Position numbers and translations under genes: made by a program. A stretch of 47,355 nt of DNA from a virus. This document shows positions 3,573 to 29,829 of this stretch, one piece after another; positions within the stretch are counted from its first letter, which is position 1, and each line of letters starts with the position of its first letter. The stretch is taken from positions 1 through 47,355 of IMG/VR virus record IMGVR_UViG_3300022752_000117, one strand, 5' to 3'. The notes below the pieces were generated by a model. That model searched no databases. It was not told the DNA's origin and saw nothing but the letters and a program-made list of their open reading frames with translations.

Positions 3573-3580
3573 TATTTATC
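3573..3580 (-). promoter_or_regulatory. Late-promoter-like 8-mer GATAAATA
   Basis: On the minus strand GATAAATA is followed 20 bases later by the ATG of the 352-residue gene, with a GGAG ribosome-binding site between. It matches the T4 late-promoter -10 element TATAAATA at 7 of 8 positions and recurs at the same kind of site elsewhere in the window. Confidence 0.6.
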
Positions 3581-8644: not shown

Positions 8645-9298
8645 CTATGCCTTTACTTTTATTACCTGATCAATTCGTTGTATATTTGAACCCAAAAACA
8701 TTTGTACCATGCTTAATGTTTTAGCGTCTTTTACATAGAAATAACTGTCACCACTACGCCAACCACGTCTAATATGATCACGACAACGCCTAGGCATACG
8801 TATTTTATCATTGCCTGTACACCATTTAAAGAAACTTTCGTTATTGGGAACACGTTGTGTTAGGGTGATTTTAAAGTCATAATCAACACGTTTAAGATAA
8901 ACCTTGTTCTTTTCCAGCACAGAATTGGCATCTTCAGGCATGCTAATGTATTTTACATAACCAAAAAGTTCTTTACTTACTTGTTTGAAATCATCAAACT
9001 TATCTGTGTAAAAGGTTAAGAAAGGACTACTGACCATAAGTTTGTAGTCACTGACCTTTTGAAATGCTTTTACTATATTGTATGCACGGTCCAAGTCACT
9101 AGCAACGCCGTTATAAACCCAACCAGGAAAAGTTTTATTTTCCCTCCAGTGGGAGATTTTTTCTGCGGCGTCCTCAATGTCTCTACCTCTAAAAGTTGTG
9201 GCAAGCTTAGATACGAGAACTATCTTATACCTATACAGGTCCAAAAACAGTTTATTGGTTTTCTTCGTTGGTAATAGTTTCAAGTGGTTCATCTTCAA
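8645..9298 (-). CDS. Conserved phage protein of unknown function (217 aa)
   Basis: The frame opens inside the 3' end of the ClpA-like gene (47-base overlap). The segment KLFLDLYRYKIVLVSKLATTFRG near residue 16 looks like the start of a conserved fold, so the upstream ATG at 9298 or 9292 is kept. The protein is basic, mixed alpha/beta, and ends with CRDHIRRGWRSGDSYFYVKDAKTLSMVQM. I recall similar unnamed proteins in marine T4-like phages. A nucleic-acid-binding role is possible from the Arg-rich C-terminal helix but is only a guess. It is the last gene of the dnaJ-def-clpA operon. Confidence 0.6.
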   Translation of the reverse strand: MKMNHLKLLPTKKTNKLFLDLYRYKIVLVSKLATTFRGRDIEDAAEKISHWRENKTFPGWVYNGVASDLDRAYNIVKAFQKVSDYKLMVSSPFLTFYTDKFDDFKQVSKELFGYVKYISMPEDANSVLEKNKVYLKRVDYDFKITLTQRVPNNESFFKWCTGNDKIRMPRRCRDHIRRGWRSGDSYFYVKDAKTLSMVQMFLGSNIQRIDQVIKVKA

Positions 9299-11519
9299 CT
9301 ACTTTACTTTGTCTTGTGCGTTTAGTCAATGTAATTTGGCTACCATCTAATCCAATAACCAAACTACCTCCATCCTTAAGTTCACCAAATAACATCATAC
9401 GACTTAATGGGCGTTTGATCTCTTTATCAATCACACGCTGTAATGGACGGGCACCCATTTTACTATCAAATCCTTTTTCAATCAAATGATTTATAGCAGC
9501 ATCGTTAATTTTAATGCGAATGCCCTTTTCTGATACTTGTTGTTTAAGCTCGTCAATAAACTTAATAACAATTTTATACATAGTTTCTTTTGTAAGTTTG
9601 CCAAATGTAATAATAGCATCTAACCTATTTCTAAACTCAGGAGCAAAGAATTTCTTAAGATCCTTATCATCATAATCCTTTTCCTGTTTGCCAAAACCAA
9701 TCTGATTCTTCTCAGCATTTTGAGCACCGGCATTGGTAGTGAGAATAAGGATGATATTACGACAGTCTGCTTTCTTACCATTGCTGCCTGTGACAAAGCC
9801 ATTGTCCATCATCTGTAGTAGGATAGTGCTAACATCTGGATGACTCTTTTCAACTTCATCAAATAGTAGTACACAATATGGATTTTCTTGAATCTGTGTA
9901 ATTAATAGCCCAGCGTTTTCTTCGAACCCTACATACCCTGGTGGGCTACCAATTAGTTTACTTACGCTGTGTTTTTCCTGATATTCACTCATATCAAAGC
10001 GTAATAATTTTACACCTAAGTGTTTGGCCAGTATTTTAGCTGTTTCTGTTTTGCCACAACCTGTTGGACCCATAAAAACAAATGACCCAATAGGCTTGTT
10101 CTCAGGTTTAAGACCAGCACGGGCAACAAGAATTTTATCCACTAGTTCAGTCACCGCAGTAGTTTGGCCAAATACTTCACCATTAATTTGTGTTTCTAAA
10201 TTGGCTAAGTTATTGCTTTCAGTTTCAGCAATCTGTTCTTCTGGAAGTTGAATCATTTGACTTAATTCGAATTGAATTTCGTGATCCGTAATAGTGCGTT
10301 CCTGATCTAACTTCAAATTAAATCTACTACAGGCACAGTCAATAAGATCAATAGCCTTATCGGGAAGTTTTTTATCACTCTGATATTTTACACTGAGTTT
10401 CACAGCAGATTGAATAGCTGCCTCTGTAATTTTAACTTTATGAAATTGTTCGTAGTATTTCTTAATACCCTTAAGGATTTGAATAGTTGTTTCGTAGTTA
10501 GGTTCATCAACAGTAATACGTTGGAAACGACGCATTAGAGCACGATCTTTTTCAAAATATTTGCGATATTCTTCCCAAGTCGTACTTGCTACAACCTTAA
10601 TATTACCTTTACTTAAAGCTGGTTTCATCATATTGGCTAAGTCGTTGGCGTTGTTACCGGCACTACCTGCACCATTAATCATATGGGCTTCATCAATAAA
10701 CAGGATAGTTTTGCCCTTAGTTTGTAGACCTTTTAATACAAGTTTAAATCTTTCTTCAAAGTCTCCTCTATACTTGCTACCAGCTAATAGGCTACTAATA
10801 TCTAAATTATATACAGTATAGTCTTTAAGGAAATCTGGAATATGTCCCTTTACAATATTATAGGCTAGTCCTTCAGCAATAGCAGTTTTACCAACTCCTG
10901 GTTCGCCTACCAGCATAACATTATTTTTATTACGACGACCCATGGCCAAGGCAATATTTTCTAGTTCAGTTACACGACCAATAACAGGGTCAATTTTATT
11001 TTTCTTAACTGCTTCGTTTAAATTTGTAGTAAATGCTTTGAGCGCTCTATCAACCTGGATATCATTAGTTTGTTCTTCTTCGTCGTTTTGAATTTCGCTA
11101 TTCAAGTAATCAGCAAATTTACTTTTGTCTATACCTGCCTGTTGTACATAGTAGCTGGCATAGCTACGTTTTTCACTCATTATGCTAATGAATACATCGC
11201 ATAATTCCATAGTTTGACGACCATTAAATAAGGCCTGTGTAAACGCACGGTTGAGTACACGTTCCACAGCCTGCGTTTTCTTTGGCTTATTTACTTCATC
11301 TTTTACTATATCGTTAAGTTTATGCTTGATATAGTGATCCAGATTAGTTCTAATATAACTTGGATCTGCCCCATAACCATTTAATATATTGATGAAATTA
11401 TCATCATTTAACATCGTATAAAGTAAATGTTCTATGGTAAGATATTCGTGCTTTAAATGTTTAGCTAGTTCAATAGCCTGTTCAAAAACTGCTTTAAGAC
11501 TCTCGCTGGGCTCTACCAT
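9252..11519 (-). CDS. clpA: ClpA/ClpC-type AAA+ unfoldase (755 aa)
   Basis: An ATP-driven protein unfoldase that feeds substrates to the ClpP peptidase. The length is nearly that of E. coli ClpA. Order: a Clp N-domain (about 1-145, from [16 protein letters not shown]), first AAA+ domain with Walker A GEPGVGKT near 205 and Walker B LFIDEAH near 276, then a second AAA+ domain with GPTGCGKT near 485 and LLFDEVEKSHPDV. There is no ClpB-type long middle coiled coil. In the second domain the sequence NQIGFGKQ (near 606) occupies the place of the ClpP-binding IGL loop; I-G-F is a known acceptable variant, so the protein could dock on host ClpP. No phage ClpP is seen in the window. The start overlaps the 3' end of def by 26 bases. 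Confidence 0.92.
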   Translation of the reverse strand: MVEPSESLKAVFEQAIELAKHLKHEYLTIEHLLYTMLNDDNFINILNGYGADPSYIRTNLDHYIKHKLNDIVKDEVNKPKKTQAVERVLNRAFTQALFNGRQTMELCDVFISIMSEKRSYASYYVQQAGIDKSKFADYLNSEIQNDEEEQTNDIQVDRALKAFTTNLNEAVKKNKIDPVIGRVTELENIALAMGRRNKNNVMLVGEPGVGKTAIAEGLAYNIVKGHIPDFLKDYTVYNLDISSLLAGSKYRGDFEERFKLVLKGLQTKGKTILFIDEAHMINGAGSAGNNANDLANMMKPALSKGNIKVVASTTWEEYRKYFEKDRALMRRFQRITVDEPNYETTIQILKGIKKYYEQFHKVKITEAAIQSAVKLSVKYQSDKKLPDKAIDLIDCACSRFNLKLDQERTITDHEIQFELSQMIQLPEEQIAETESNNLANLETQINGEVFGQTTAVTELVDKILVARAGLKPENKPIGSFVFMGPTGCGKTETAKILAKHLGVKLLRFDMSEYQEKHSVSKLIGSPPGYVGFEENAGLLITQIQENPYCVLLFDEVEKSHPDVSTILLQMMDNGFVTGSNGKKADCRNIILILTTNAGAQNAEKNQIGFGKQEKDYDDKDLKKFFAPEFRNRLDAIITFGKLTKETMYKIVIKFIDELKQQVSEKGIRIKINDAAINHLIEKGFDSKMGARPLQRVIDKEIKRPLSRMMLFGELKDGGSLVIGLDGSQITLTKRTRQSKVVEDEPLETITNEENQ

Positions 11520-17586: not shown

Positions 17587-17594
17587 ATTAAATA
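17587..17594 (+). promoter_or_regulatory. Possible rightward phoH promoter (ATTAAATA)
   Basis: ATTAAATA contains the TAAATA core of the T4-type late promoter. With the usual spacing, transcription would begin at about G17600, exactly the first base of the leader hairpin described next. The match is weaker than in the other promoters. Confidence 0.4.
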
Positions 17595-17599
17595 AAATT

Positions 17600-17655
17600 G
17601 TAGGACCTCTGTAGATATCGGGCGGTACTACATGTCCTACTTTTCTAAGTAGGAG
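17600..17655 (+). promoter_or_regulatory. phoH leader with two mutually exclusive hairpins; one hides the RBS
   Basis: Hairpin A: GTAGGAC (17600-17606) pairs with GTCCTAC (17634-17640), extended by TGTAG (17610-17614) with CTACA (17628-17632), for 12 bp around a 13-base loop (17615-17627). Hairpin B: TCCTACTT (17635-17642) pairs with AAGTAGGA (17647-17654) around a TTCT loop, 8 bp, burying TAGGAG (17650-17655), the Shine-Dalgarno sequence 7 bases before ATG 17663. Bases 17635-17640 are used by both, so A and B cannot coexist: A frees the RBS and B closes it. The architecture is that of a translational riboswitch or attenuator; no known riboswitch class was recognised. Confidence 0.65.
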
Positions 17656-17662
17656 TTACTGG

Positions 17663-18379
17663 ATGAGCAGAAGAGTGAAAAAACGCTTTACCTCAAATGT
17701 GAATGTGATAGATTTTGCCACATTTATTCCCCAAAAAAACTGTAGGGTACACTTGTATCCTCGAAATGAAACCCAAAAATCATATATACAAAAACTTCAA
17801 AATGAAGATAATAGTATACTATTTGCTATAGGACCAGCAGGTACAGGTAAAACTTTACTGGCAGTTCAAGCAGGGATTAAGTTTTTTCAAGAGGGCAAAG
17901 TAGATAAACTCATAGTAACAAGACCCGCCGTGAGTGTAGATGAAGACTTGGGTTTTTTGCCAGGCACGTTAAATCAAAAGATGGAGCCATGGACCAAGCC
18001 TATATTTGACGTTTTAGGAGAATATTATAGTCAAAGAGATATTGTAGAAATGTTAAGTGAGGGTGTGATTGAGATCAGCCCTTTGGCCTATATGAGAGGG
18101 CGCACATTTAAACGTGCCTGGATCATAGCCGATGAGATGCAGAATGCTACAGCAAATCAAATGAAAATGCTACTGACAAGATTAGGAGATCAAAGTCGCA
18201 TGGTAGTCACAGGTGATCTGGCACAAGCAGATAGACTTGAGGACAATGGGTTGGTCGAATTTTGCAACCTACTCGGGAAACATAAACGAACAGAGCATAT
18301 CGATATCGTTAGATTTGAAGCCAAAGATATCGAACGCCATCAAGCCGTGAAGGAGGTGTTATCAATATACGGTGATTAA
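17663..18379 (+). CDS. phoH: PhoH-like ATPase (238 aa)
   Basis: A P-loop ATPase of the PhoH family. Walker A is GPAGTGKT (57-64), and IVTRPAVSVDEDLGFLPG, the Walker B region WIIADEMQNAT near 156, and the VVTGDLAQADRLEDNG motif follow, all diagnostic of PhoH. In bacteria the family is linked to phosphate starvation and RNA metabolism; phage copies are very common in marine myoviruses but their role in infection is unsettled. It is one of only three rightward genes, transcribed away from the lysis operon. The ATG is preceded by AGGAG, sequestered in a hairpin (see leader). Its stop overlaps by 4 bases the stop of the convergent gene, leaving no room for a terminator. Confidence 0.93.
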   Translation: MSRRVKKRFTSNVNVIDFATFIPQKNCRVHLYPRNETQKSYIQKLQNEDNSILFAIGPAGTGKTLLAVQAGIKFFQEGKVDKLIVTRPAVSVDEDLGFLPGTLNQKMEPWTKPIFDVLGEYYSQRDIVEMLSEGVIEISPLAYMRGRTFKRAWIIADEMQNATANQMKMLLTRLGDQSRMVVTGDLAQADRLEDNGLVEFCNLLGKHKRTEHIDIVRFEAKDIERHQAVKEVLSIYGD

Positions 18380-18870
18380 TTAACTGGCTCGCCTTGGGCG
18401 TCTACTTCTATCCAGCTGTAGTCGCCCAGCCATTTAACACGAGTTATATACTCGTACTCTTTAGGTGATGCTGTGGACCAATCATCGGGTCCATGCATAC
18501 TCAATCTTGTACATTGATCCTTATTGTCGTACAAGAGCCAATAAGTTTTCCCATGAAAAATCTGAAACTGATATTTGGCTGCGTGTACAGCATCAGTAAC
18601 TTCTAGCCTACGTTTGATCTGATCTGCCTGCTTTTGTAGCACTGCCACAAGATCCATAATACGTTGATATTCTTGTTGGGCATGTAGGCGTGCTACATTA
18701 ACCATTAAGTCCTTTTGTTTTTCAATAGGGATCAGATCAAACTTTGGAGCACCTATATCTGTAGGGTAAGGAGTAACATTCTTATTAAAGAAGTTAATTA
18801 ATCCCCCACCAATTTCTGCATCGTAACTGGTTCTTCCTTTAGCACTATTAGGTTTATCAGTCTGTGACAT
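18376..18870 (-). CDS. DUF2452-like protein (164 aa)
   Basis: The N-terminal KPNSAKGRTSYDAEIGGG resembles other marine phage proteins. From about residue 35, TPYPTDIGAPKFDLIPIEKQKDL and a long helix HAQQEYQRIMDLVAVLQKQADQIKRRLEV lead to FQIFHGKTYWLLYDNKD, which fits the DUF2452 pattern (helix with Q-x-L-x-x-Q-A, then F-x-x-x-x-G-x-x-Y-x-L-Y). The function is unknown; the family occurs in bacteria and phages. It overlaps the 3' end of the clamp-loader gene by 14 bases, so it is probably co-transcribed with replication genes. Confidence 0.65.
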   Translation of the reverse strand: MSQTDKPNSAKGRTSYDAEIGGGLINFFNKNVTPYPTDIGAPKFDLIPIEKQKDLMVNVARLHAQQEYQRIMDLVAVLQKQADQIKRRLEVTDAVHAAKYQFQIFHGKTYWLLYDNKDQCTRLSMHGPDDWSTASPKEYEYITRVKWLGDYSWIEVDAQGEPVN

Positions 18871-28359: not shown

Positions 28360-29829
28360 TTATGTTAATCTAACATAAACTCCCCCAAGTCCATCGTACC
28401 ACTGACCGCCAATTGGTACGCCTGCAACTCCAGCAGCAGCTGAGTCTACAAATGGCCCAGGAATTACAAAATTACCTACAGATTTTATTATTTCTATTTT
28501 GGTAAAATTAGTTGTACTTGCTGCCGATGCATCAACAGGAATCGTAAAGGTAGTTTTACCTACAGCAGAACCTAGACCTTTATAATAGTTTATTACTTTT
28601 ACATTACCGGTCTCATCGGCAAGAATATCAAATTTTGATCCAGGGCTACCACCACTCATCGTAGCACTCAGTGTAAATGTACTGGCTGTTTTAGTTTTAA
28701 CATAGTAGGTAGTATTAGGTAATACACCCCCCAAGCCAGTTATAAACTGTACTGGCCCACCTATAGTCATCCAACTAGTACTTGAAGCTGTAAATTCGTC
28801 ATTGCTTGCTGTAGCCTCAGTCACTGAAGATCCGCTATAATTTACCCCACTCACTAATCTTGGAGTTATTGAAGAATCTGATCTAGTACCAATAAAATAA
28901 CTGCCTATGGCCATTGAGTCTAAAATTTTAAATAAATCTGAATTATTATCCACATCAGTAAAGATTATATTACTAGCAGTCCATGTCACGCTAGCAACTA
29001 AACTGGCTGTTACATCAATAGTTTTAGATAATTCTAAAAGATTAGTAGGTCCTATACTTACTTTACTATTACCTAAGTACATGGACTCGGCACTTAGATA
29101 TATACTTTTAAATTTATATGTAGGACTACCTATGTTTATTGTTTCATTGTTAGTAGGTATAATATCTTGACTAATCACTTCCAAAGCATTTCTACCCTGT
29201 ATACCTTGTACTCCTTGATTACCTTGTACTCCTTGATTACCTTGTATACCAAAATTTCCTTGTATACCCTGTCTACCAGCGATACCCTGTATACCTTGTG
29301 CCCCTTTAGGGACAAATATTTCCCAATCGTTTGGATTTGACCCTGGTACTATACTACTATTATCATTTACACAGATCCAGGTGTTGCCGTCATATTGTAC
29401 AATATCATTAGCATCATAATCAAGATTAGTATTCCATTCTTTTTTAAATCGATATCCTACGCCTATGGGCCCCTGATCACCATCTGCTCCTTGTATACCT
29501 GGTGGTCCTTCATTGCCTATGATACCTTGAAATCCTTGAGGACCTTGAGGACCTTGTATACCTTGACCTATGATACCTTGAAATCCTTGAATGCCCTGTA
29601 ATCCAGTGCCTCTTATTCCTTGTATACCTTGAACCCCTTGACCACCCCCACTTCCACCTCCACTTCCACCTAGATTTAGATATGGTAAATTATTCCAATC
29701 GAGCACATTGTTACCAATTTTTAATTTTTGGGTATCTGTTTCGTAACCTAATTCACCTAATGCTAACACAGGATTGGCACTGACCCATTCTGCTGCTGTA
29801 CCCCTGCGTATTTGTATTTTTGAAGTCAT
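28360..29829 (-). CDS. Collagen-like tail fibre with one bead (489 aa)
   Basis: The N-terminal fibre motif (KIQIRRGTAAEWVSANPVLA, GYETDTQKLKIGNNVLDWNNLPY) is followed by a Gly/Ser spacer and G-X-Q repeats. A bead YRFKKEWNTNLDYDANDIVQYDGNTW (about 125-176) comes next, then further repeats to about 215, and a shared module SQDIIPTNNETINIGSPTYKF, KSIYLSAESMYLGNSKVSIG (from about 216). The C-terminal part is beta-rich, ending GQWYDGLGGVYVRLT. Virion fibre role inferred from paralogues in this locus. It has its own late-promoter-like GATAAATA (29855-29848) and RBS AAGGATG. Confidence 0.8.
   Translation of the reverse strand: MTSKIQIRRGTAAEWVSANPVLALGELGYETDTQKLKIGNNVLDWNNLPYLNLGGSGGGSGGGQGVQGIQGIRGTGLQGIQGFQGIIGQGIQGPQGPQGFQGIIGNEGPPGIQGADGDQGPIGVGYRFKKEWNTNLDYDANDIVQYDGNTWICVNDNSSIVPGSNPNDWEIFVPKGAQGIQGIAGRQGIQGNFGIQGNQGVQGNQGVQGIQGRNALEVISQDIIPTNNETINIGSPTYKFKSIYLSAESMYLGNSKVSIGPTNLLELSKTIDVTASLVASVTWTASNIIFTDVDNNSDLFKILDSMAIGSYFIGTRSDSSITPRLVSGVNYSGSSVTEATASNDEFTASSTSWMTIGGPVQFITGLGGVLPNTTYYVKTKTASTFTLSATMSGGSPGSKFDILADETGNVKVINYYKGLGSAVGKTTFTIPVDASAASTTNFTKIEIIKSVGNFVIPGPFVDSAAAGVAGVPIGGQWYDGLGGVYVRLT

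Follow-up and report, generated by a model that had tools for sequence, protein, structure and literature searches.

A phage phoH leader with two alternative partners for its 5' end, a candidate co-transcriptional switch

The mRNA of hok, the type I toxin gene of plasmid R1, carries metastable hairpins that hide its Shine-Dalgarno sequence (SD). In phage T4, the leaders of gene 32 and gene 43 are autogenous translational operators, though we know of no dual-acceptor design, of the kind described below, in either of them. The gene considered here, phoH, is frequent in phages. Metastable SD-hiding hairpins have also been described in the aapA3 mRNA of Helicobacter pylori, another type I toxin (PMC6733600), and these would be the closest mechanism to the one that we propose for the phoH leader.

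The DNA analyzed (the window) is a 47,355-nt IMG/VR record, a contig from a virus of bacteria, a T4-like phage with clamp-loader, endolysin and tail genes. Its genes lie mostly on the minus strand, while phoH lies on the plus strand, close to the clamp-loader gene. The PhoH product scores 243.8 bits against PF02562 (cut-off 27), placing it within the family; it starts with MSRRVKKRF from an ATG at 17663, and its nearest solved structure is 3b85. The end of phoH overlaps by 4 nt with a convergent gene for a DUF2452 protein (18376-18870, minus strand). Elsewhere on the minus strand, the window encodes a protein that combines a Major tropism determinant N-terminal domain (PF18454) with collagen repeats (28360-29829), and an ATP-dependent protease-like protein (9252-11519; phrog_4871, E=6e-252). 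The elements of the phoH leader are as follows, where ON denotes the fold that leaves the SD free and OFF the fold that hides it.

17589..17594, plus strand: TAAATA, putative core of a T4-type late promoter (from sequence; the same core precedes most related phoH leaders)
17600, plus strand: predicted transcript start (+1), the first base of the 5' hairpin, 6 nt past the last A of TAAATA
17600..17606, plus strand: D1, the 5'-terminal donor strand GTAGGAC (from sequence; resembles the SD region GTAGGAG)
17610..17614, plus strand: D2, TGTAG, ON-fold partner of CTACA (17628-17632)
17619..17631, plus strand: A1, the inner acceptor CGGGCGGTACTAC, OFF-fold partner of D1 plus CCTCTG (17600-17611)
17634..17640, plus strand: A2, the outer acceptor GTCCTAC, partner of D1 (ON) or, as 17635-17642, of the SD (OFF)
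17635..17654, plus strand: SD-hiding hairpin, 8 bp, loop TTCT (from sequence and a 52-leader alignment)
17651..17655, plus strand: SD, AGGAG (from sequence)
17663..18379, plus strand: phoH, 238 aa (PF02562, E=1.5e-72; phrog_170, E=5e-71)

A previous reading of the window, made from its sequence only, had described two competing hairpins at these positions, and both were found where it placed them. The SD-hiding hairpin is formed by TCCTACTT (17635-17642) and AAGTAGGA (17647-17654), and it has 17635-17640 in common with the 5' hairpin; both this geometry and modelled folding support the view that only one of the two states can form around the ribosome-binding site. What had been taken for a 13-base loop turned out not to be a simple loop, as it either extends the hairpin (UAUC-GGGC-GGUA) or pairs with the 5' ACCUCUG. 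In the window's family, two partners are open to D1 (plus CCTCTG), namely A1 (CGGGCGGT.CTAC) and A2 (GTCCTAC): when it pairs with A2, A1 is left to D2 and the SD is free, and when it pairs with A1, A2 is left to the SD. The 5'-terminal letters of the RNA would have two alternative partners, with one fold tending to hide the SD and the other to free it.

The T4 late promoter motif TATAAATA spans positions -13 to -6 (PMC1524935), and the window matches it in the TAAATA core and in spacing, though the leading TA of the consensus is absent (ATTAAATA). This spacing agrees with the earlier proposal that the transcript begins at the first base of the 5' hairpin, such that 17600 is the predicted +1 if TAAATA acts as a T4 late promoter. 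Of 280 regions upstream of phoH genes, 258 could be parsed, and in most of these the TAAATA core lies 4-5 nt ahead of the leader's first G; the first leader base is a G at a fixed 5-nt spacing in the great majority, and at a 4-nt spacing in about 30 more. A scan for sigma-70 promoters yielded no more sites than did shuffled sequences. On the minus strand, TAAATA directly precedes an SD and start codon at 3578, 8613, 20468, 21218, 24517 and 29853, and these six sites are probably T4-type late promoters of the ordinary kind, whose leaders are very short. The phoH leader, structured and 63 nt long, stands out, since the genes downstream of the window's remaining late-promoter-like sites have short leaders, in several cases of only ~10-25 nt.

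The two overlapping helices are not readily produced by chance: a 5'-terminal helix of at least 7 bp together with an SD-hiding helix of at least 8 bp, having at least 6 nt in common, was reproduced in only 14 of 20,000 shuffles of the leader, and the minimum free energy of the leader (z = -2.28) was equalled in 3 of 200. Close relatives keep 91-98% identity over the 56-nt leader, against 33-95% at the third codon positions of phoH and 53-90% over the 60 nt upstream. In an alignment of 52 leaders of the window's family, 98.3% of cells were paired over the 8 bp of the SD-hiding hairpin, with double changes at two pairs, and GGCGGT was invariant. Covariation is weak within this family because its strands are nearly invariant, and so this alignment by itself is too conserved to decide on covariation.

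The leader is specific to phoH, as judged by sequence matches. All 81 checkable matches to a pattern combining the late promoter and the 5' hairpin precede phoH, and in the fetched loci TAAATA-N5-G[TC]AGG occurs 207 times before phoH and 5 times before anything else. For a pattern built on the loop, 86 distinct cases were among the matches listed, and 82 of these were phoH leaders; in cellular genomes the pattern gave 22 matches, none of them at phoH.

Scanning IMG/VR by protein and by pattern, we collected phoH leaders that follow TAA[AG]TA, 281 of them distinct, and by these sequence comparisons the leader is a large structured-RNA family found in hundreds of related environmental phages, in very different letters. 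The D1, A1 and A2 strands read, respectively, GTAGGAC, GTCCTAC and GTCCTAC in leader L232, GCAGGGA, TTCCTGC and ACCCTGC in L244, GTAAGGG, CCCTTGC and TCCTTAC in L302, GTGTTCG, CGGACAC and CTAACAC in L429, and GTGCTCG, CGGGCAC and CTAGCAC in L456. After grouping at 80% identity into 54 clusters, 39 clusters had two acceptors of at least 5 bp for the first 7 nt, compared with 14.6 +- 3.0 (maximum 23 of 500) in dinucleotide shuffles, and the acceptor scores exceeded those of shuffles with z = 13.5 for the best and 16.8 for the second acceptor. Exchanging acceptors across D1 classes cost pairing, with each class fitting its own acceptors better (p = 5e-9 and 4e-7).

The sequence-only reading had made itself dependent on stem covariation in related phages, and paired changes do occur, both within and between leader families. 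In the GTGTTCG family, D1:A1 is 99.4% paired with 8 double-change cells (2.6 expected; 0/500), and D1:A2 with A1:D2 is 97.0% paired with 10 (2.3 expected; 0/500); column 4 of D1 covaries with both acceptors, though most of the sequences concerned may go back to a single event. At least 12 changes of D1 class occur on the PhoH tree. For GTAAG, at least two changes are forced by well-supported branches (three on the best tree), with the acceptors matching each time, and in the sister pair L555/L558 D1, A1 and A2 differ in step. Covariation thus supports both alternative helices across families and is weak inside the window's own.

About 45 leaders of a large PhoH group (L016-L080) are short, ~30 nt, and begin with a conserved GCAGGTCG after TAAATA; the switch design is absent from them. 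Cultured phages gave no PhoH above 60% identity, and inspection of the phoH leaders of Phosso, PA5oct, Atu_ph07 and immuto found no dual-acceptor leader. The phoH leader of PA5oct (L688, ~1300-1383) does open, at its predicted late +1, with a hairpin (GTAAAGAT...ATCTTTATAC), and might serve as a laboratory model.

When the nascent RNA of the window was modelled, D1:A1 formed at 34 nt, D1:A2 at 42-54 nt, and D1:A1 with the SD hairpin from 58 nt onward. The modelled ON fold lay above the OFF fold by a median of +2.8 kcal/mol across the window's family. In 31 of the 39 clusters, modelled SD exposure was lower with D1 paired to A1, and in 34 the model favored D1:A2, by a median of 4.7 kcal/mol. 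As D1:A2 is thus the ground state in most other families, A1 may matter there only during transcription, as a transient fold. Two families, the window's and that of L240, L248 and L261, show strong hiding of the SD by A2; elsewhere it is weak, and the A2:SD match is mostly a generic 4-nt match to AGGA. A test swapping A2 against the SD over all clusters was not significant (p = 0.46); its automatic choice of A2 was wrong for the window's family. The model thus gives mutually exclusive folds that differ in SD exposure in the window's family, and does so less strongly elsewhere.

Taken together, we consider it somewhat better than an even bet that the phoH leader is a bistable translational leader that refolds co-transcriptionally. 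Transcription from the T4-type late promoter would start at the first paired base, and D1 would pair with A1, which emerges first. Once A2 emerges, D1 would shift to it and A1 would pair with D2; once the SD emerges, A2 could exchange D1 for the SD, with D1 going back to A1. phoH would be translated when the SD is open and repressed when the SD is held in the A2 hairpin, with the 5' end paired in both states. The exchange could be modulated by PhoH itself, as autogenous control, or proceed with no trans factor, as a folding timer that times or limits late-phase PhoH synthesis.

The phosphate or other nutrient signal suggested earlier found no support, as nothing links the leader to phosphate. 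The same reading had viewed the GGCGG loop as a sensing site, in effect the aptamer of a metabolite riboswitch. Its invariance among the 52 aligned leaders would suit an aptamer, yet GGCGG is the A1 strand of the alternative D1:A1 helix, and we dropped it as a ligand site after seeing this pairing. Moreover, families of the same design lack GGCGG, which makes an aptamer unlikely; no conserved aptamer separate from an expression platform was found, the families having only architecture in common; and there is no Rfam match, while the loop matches in cellular genomes are unrelated to phoH. Altogether, we regard a riboswitch as very improbable. An RNA thermometer, also raised earlier, deserves hardly any weight: the SD does lie in a hairpin and the modelled difference between ON and OFF in the window does fall with temperature, but the slope is shallow, +3.5 kcal/mol at 5 °C becoming +1.0 at 37 °C, and a thermometer would not need a 5' arm with two acceptors, nor would it account for the many clusters that leave the SD unhidden.

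Hairpins at the 5' terminus are established as stabilizers of bacterial mRNAs, and the leader might simply be a constitutive hairpin guarding late phoH mRNA against decay, with the second acceptor and SD hairpin as by-products. Almost all long-leader families allow pairing of the first transcribed base, and the predominance of D1:A2 in the 34 clusters would fit such a role; still, one acceptor would suffice for it, yet two are conserved and change together with D1, and at the window's other late genes the leaders are short and lack such a hairpin. We therefore find it unlikely. Less probable again is an operator at which another phage or host RNA-binding protein, such as a RegA-like repressor or an RNA chaperone, selects one fold. 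The geometry would suit a protein-gated switch, but a repressor of general action should have more than one target, whereas the leader precedes phoH only, and no sequence motif is common to all leader families.

Returning to the co-transcriptional switch, PhoH itself is our tentative first choice of modulator, ahead of a pure folding timer. The grounds are that the leader is confined to phoH and that the N-termini of all these PhoH proteins are basic (every D1 class averages 4-6 K/R over residues 1-15); binding is guessed from this charge. It is conceivable, though doubtful, that PhoH, by means of its basic N-terminus and ATPase, binds its own leader or remodels it, and so switches the mRNA that encodes it between folds. 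Links of the PhoH family to RNA, namely that of YbeZ with the RNase YbeY (PMC5101352) and the PIN-PhoH RNases (PMC5490813), would be compatible with such self-control. If true, it would give a biochemical handle on phage PhoH, and the leader offers a direct assay, a leader reporter with or without PhoH. That the leader is kept over great sequence divergence, and before phoH only, suggests that the dose or timing of PhoH is under selection.

Comparison with Rfam, proposed in the sequence-only reading, revealed no matching family: the window had no match at the gathering score and, under relaxed settings, one chance snoRNA match outside the leader (E=9.6), and in 18 relatives searched at E<=1 the sole match, to Termite-leu and outside the leader, was at chance level (21.8 bits against a cut-off of 51). 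In open-access papers we found nothing on structure in phoH leaders. The leader is real, widespread and, as far as Rfam and the open-access literature show, undescribed. An RNA of this kind, defined by architecture without a fixed sequence, is missed by profile libraries, and the phoH leaders amount to a natural collection in which one strand-exchange design has been solved in dozens of ways.

Like the T4 gene 32 and gene 43 operators, the phoH leader belongs to a T4-like phage and is a structured leader at the ribosome-binding site of one gene, with self-control plausible; unlike in those, protein binding is only hypothetical, and the likeness is one of description. With translational riboswitch platforms (anti-anti-SD : anti-SD : SD) it shares a set of three segments that can form only one pairing at a time, and it differs in having neither a cross-family conserved aptamer nor an Rfam match. 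Its resemblance to the aapA3 and hok mRNAs would lie in successive, mutually exclusive co-transcriptional hairpins, repeated anti-SD elements and a structured 5' end. Unlike in these, no toxin, antisense RNA or 3' processing step is seen with the phoH leader, and the exchange would run through a 5'-terminal donor with two acceptors, within a leader of only ~60-75 nt.
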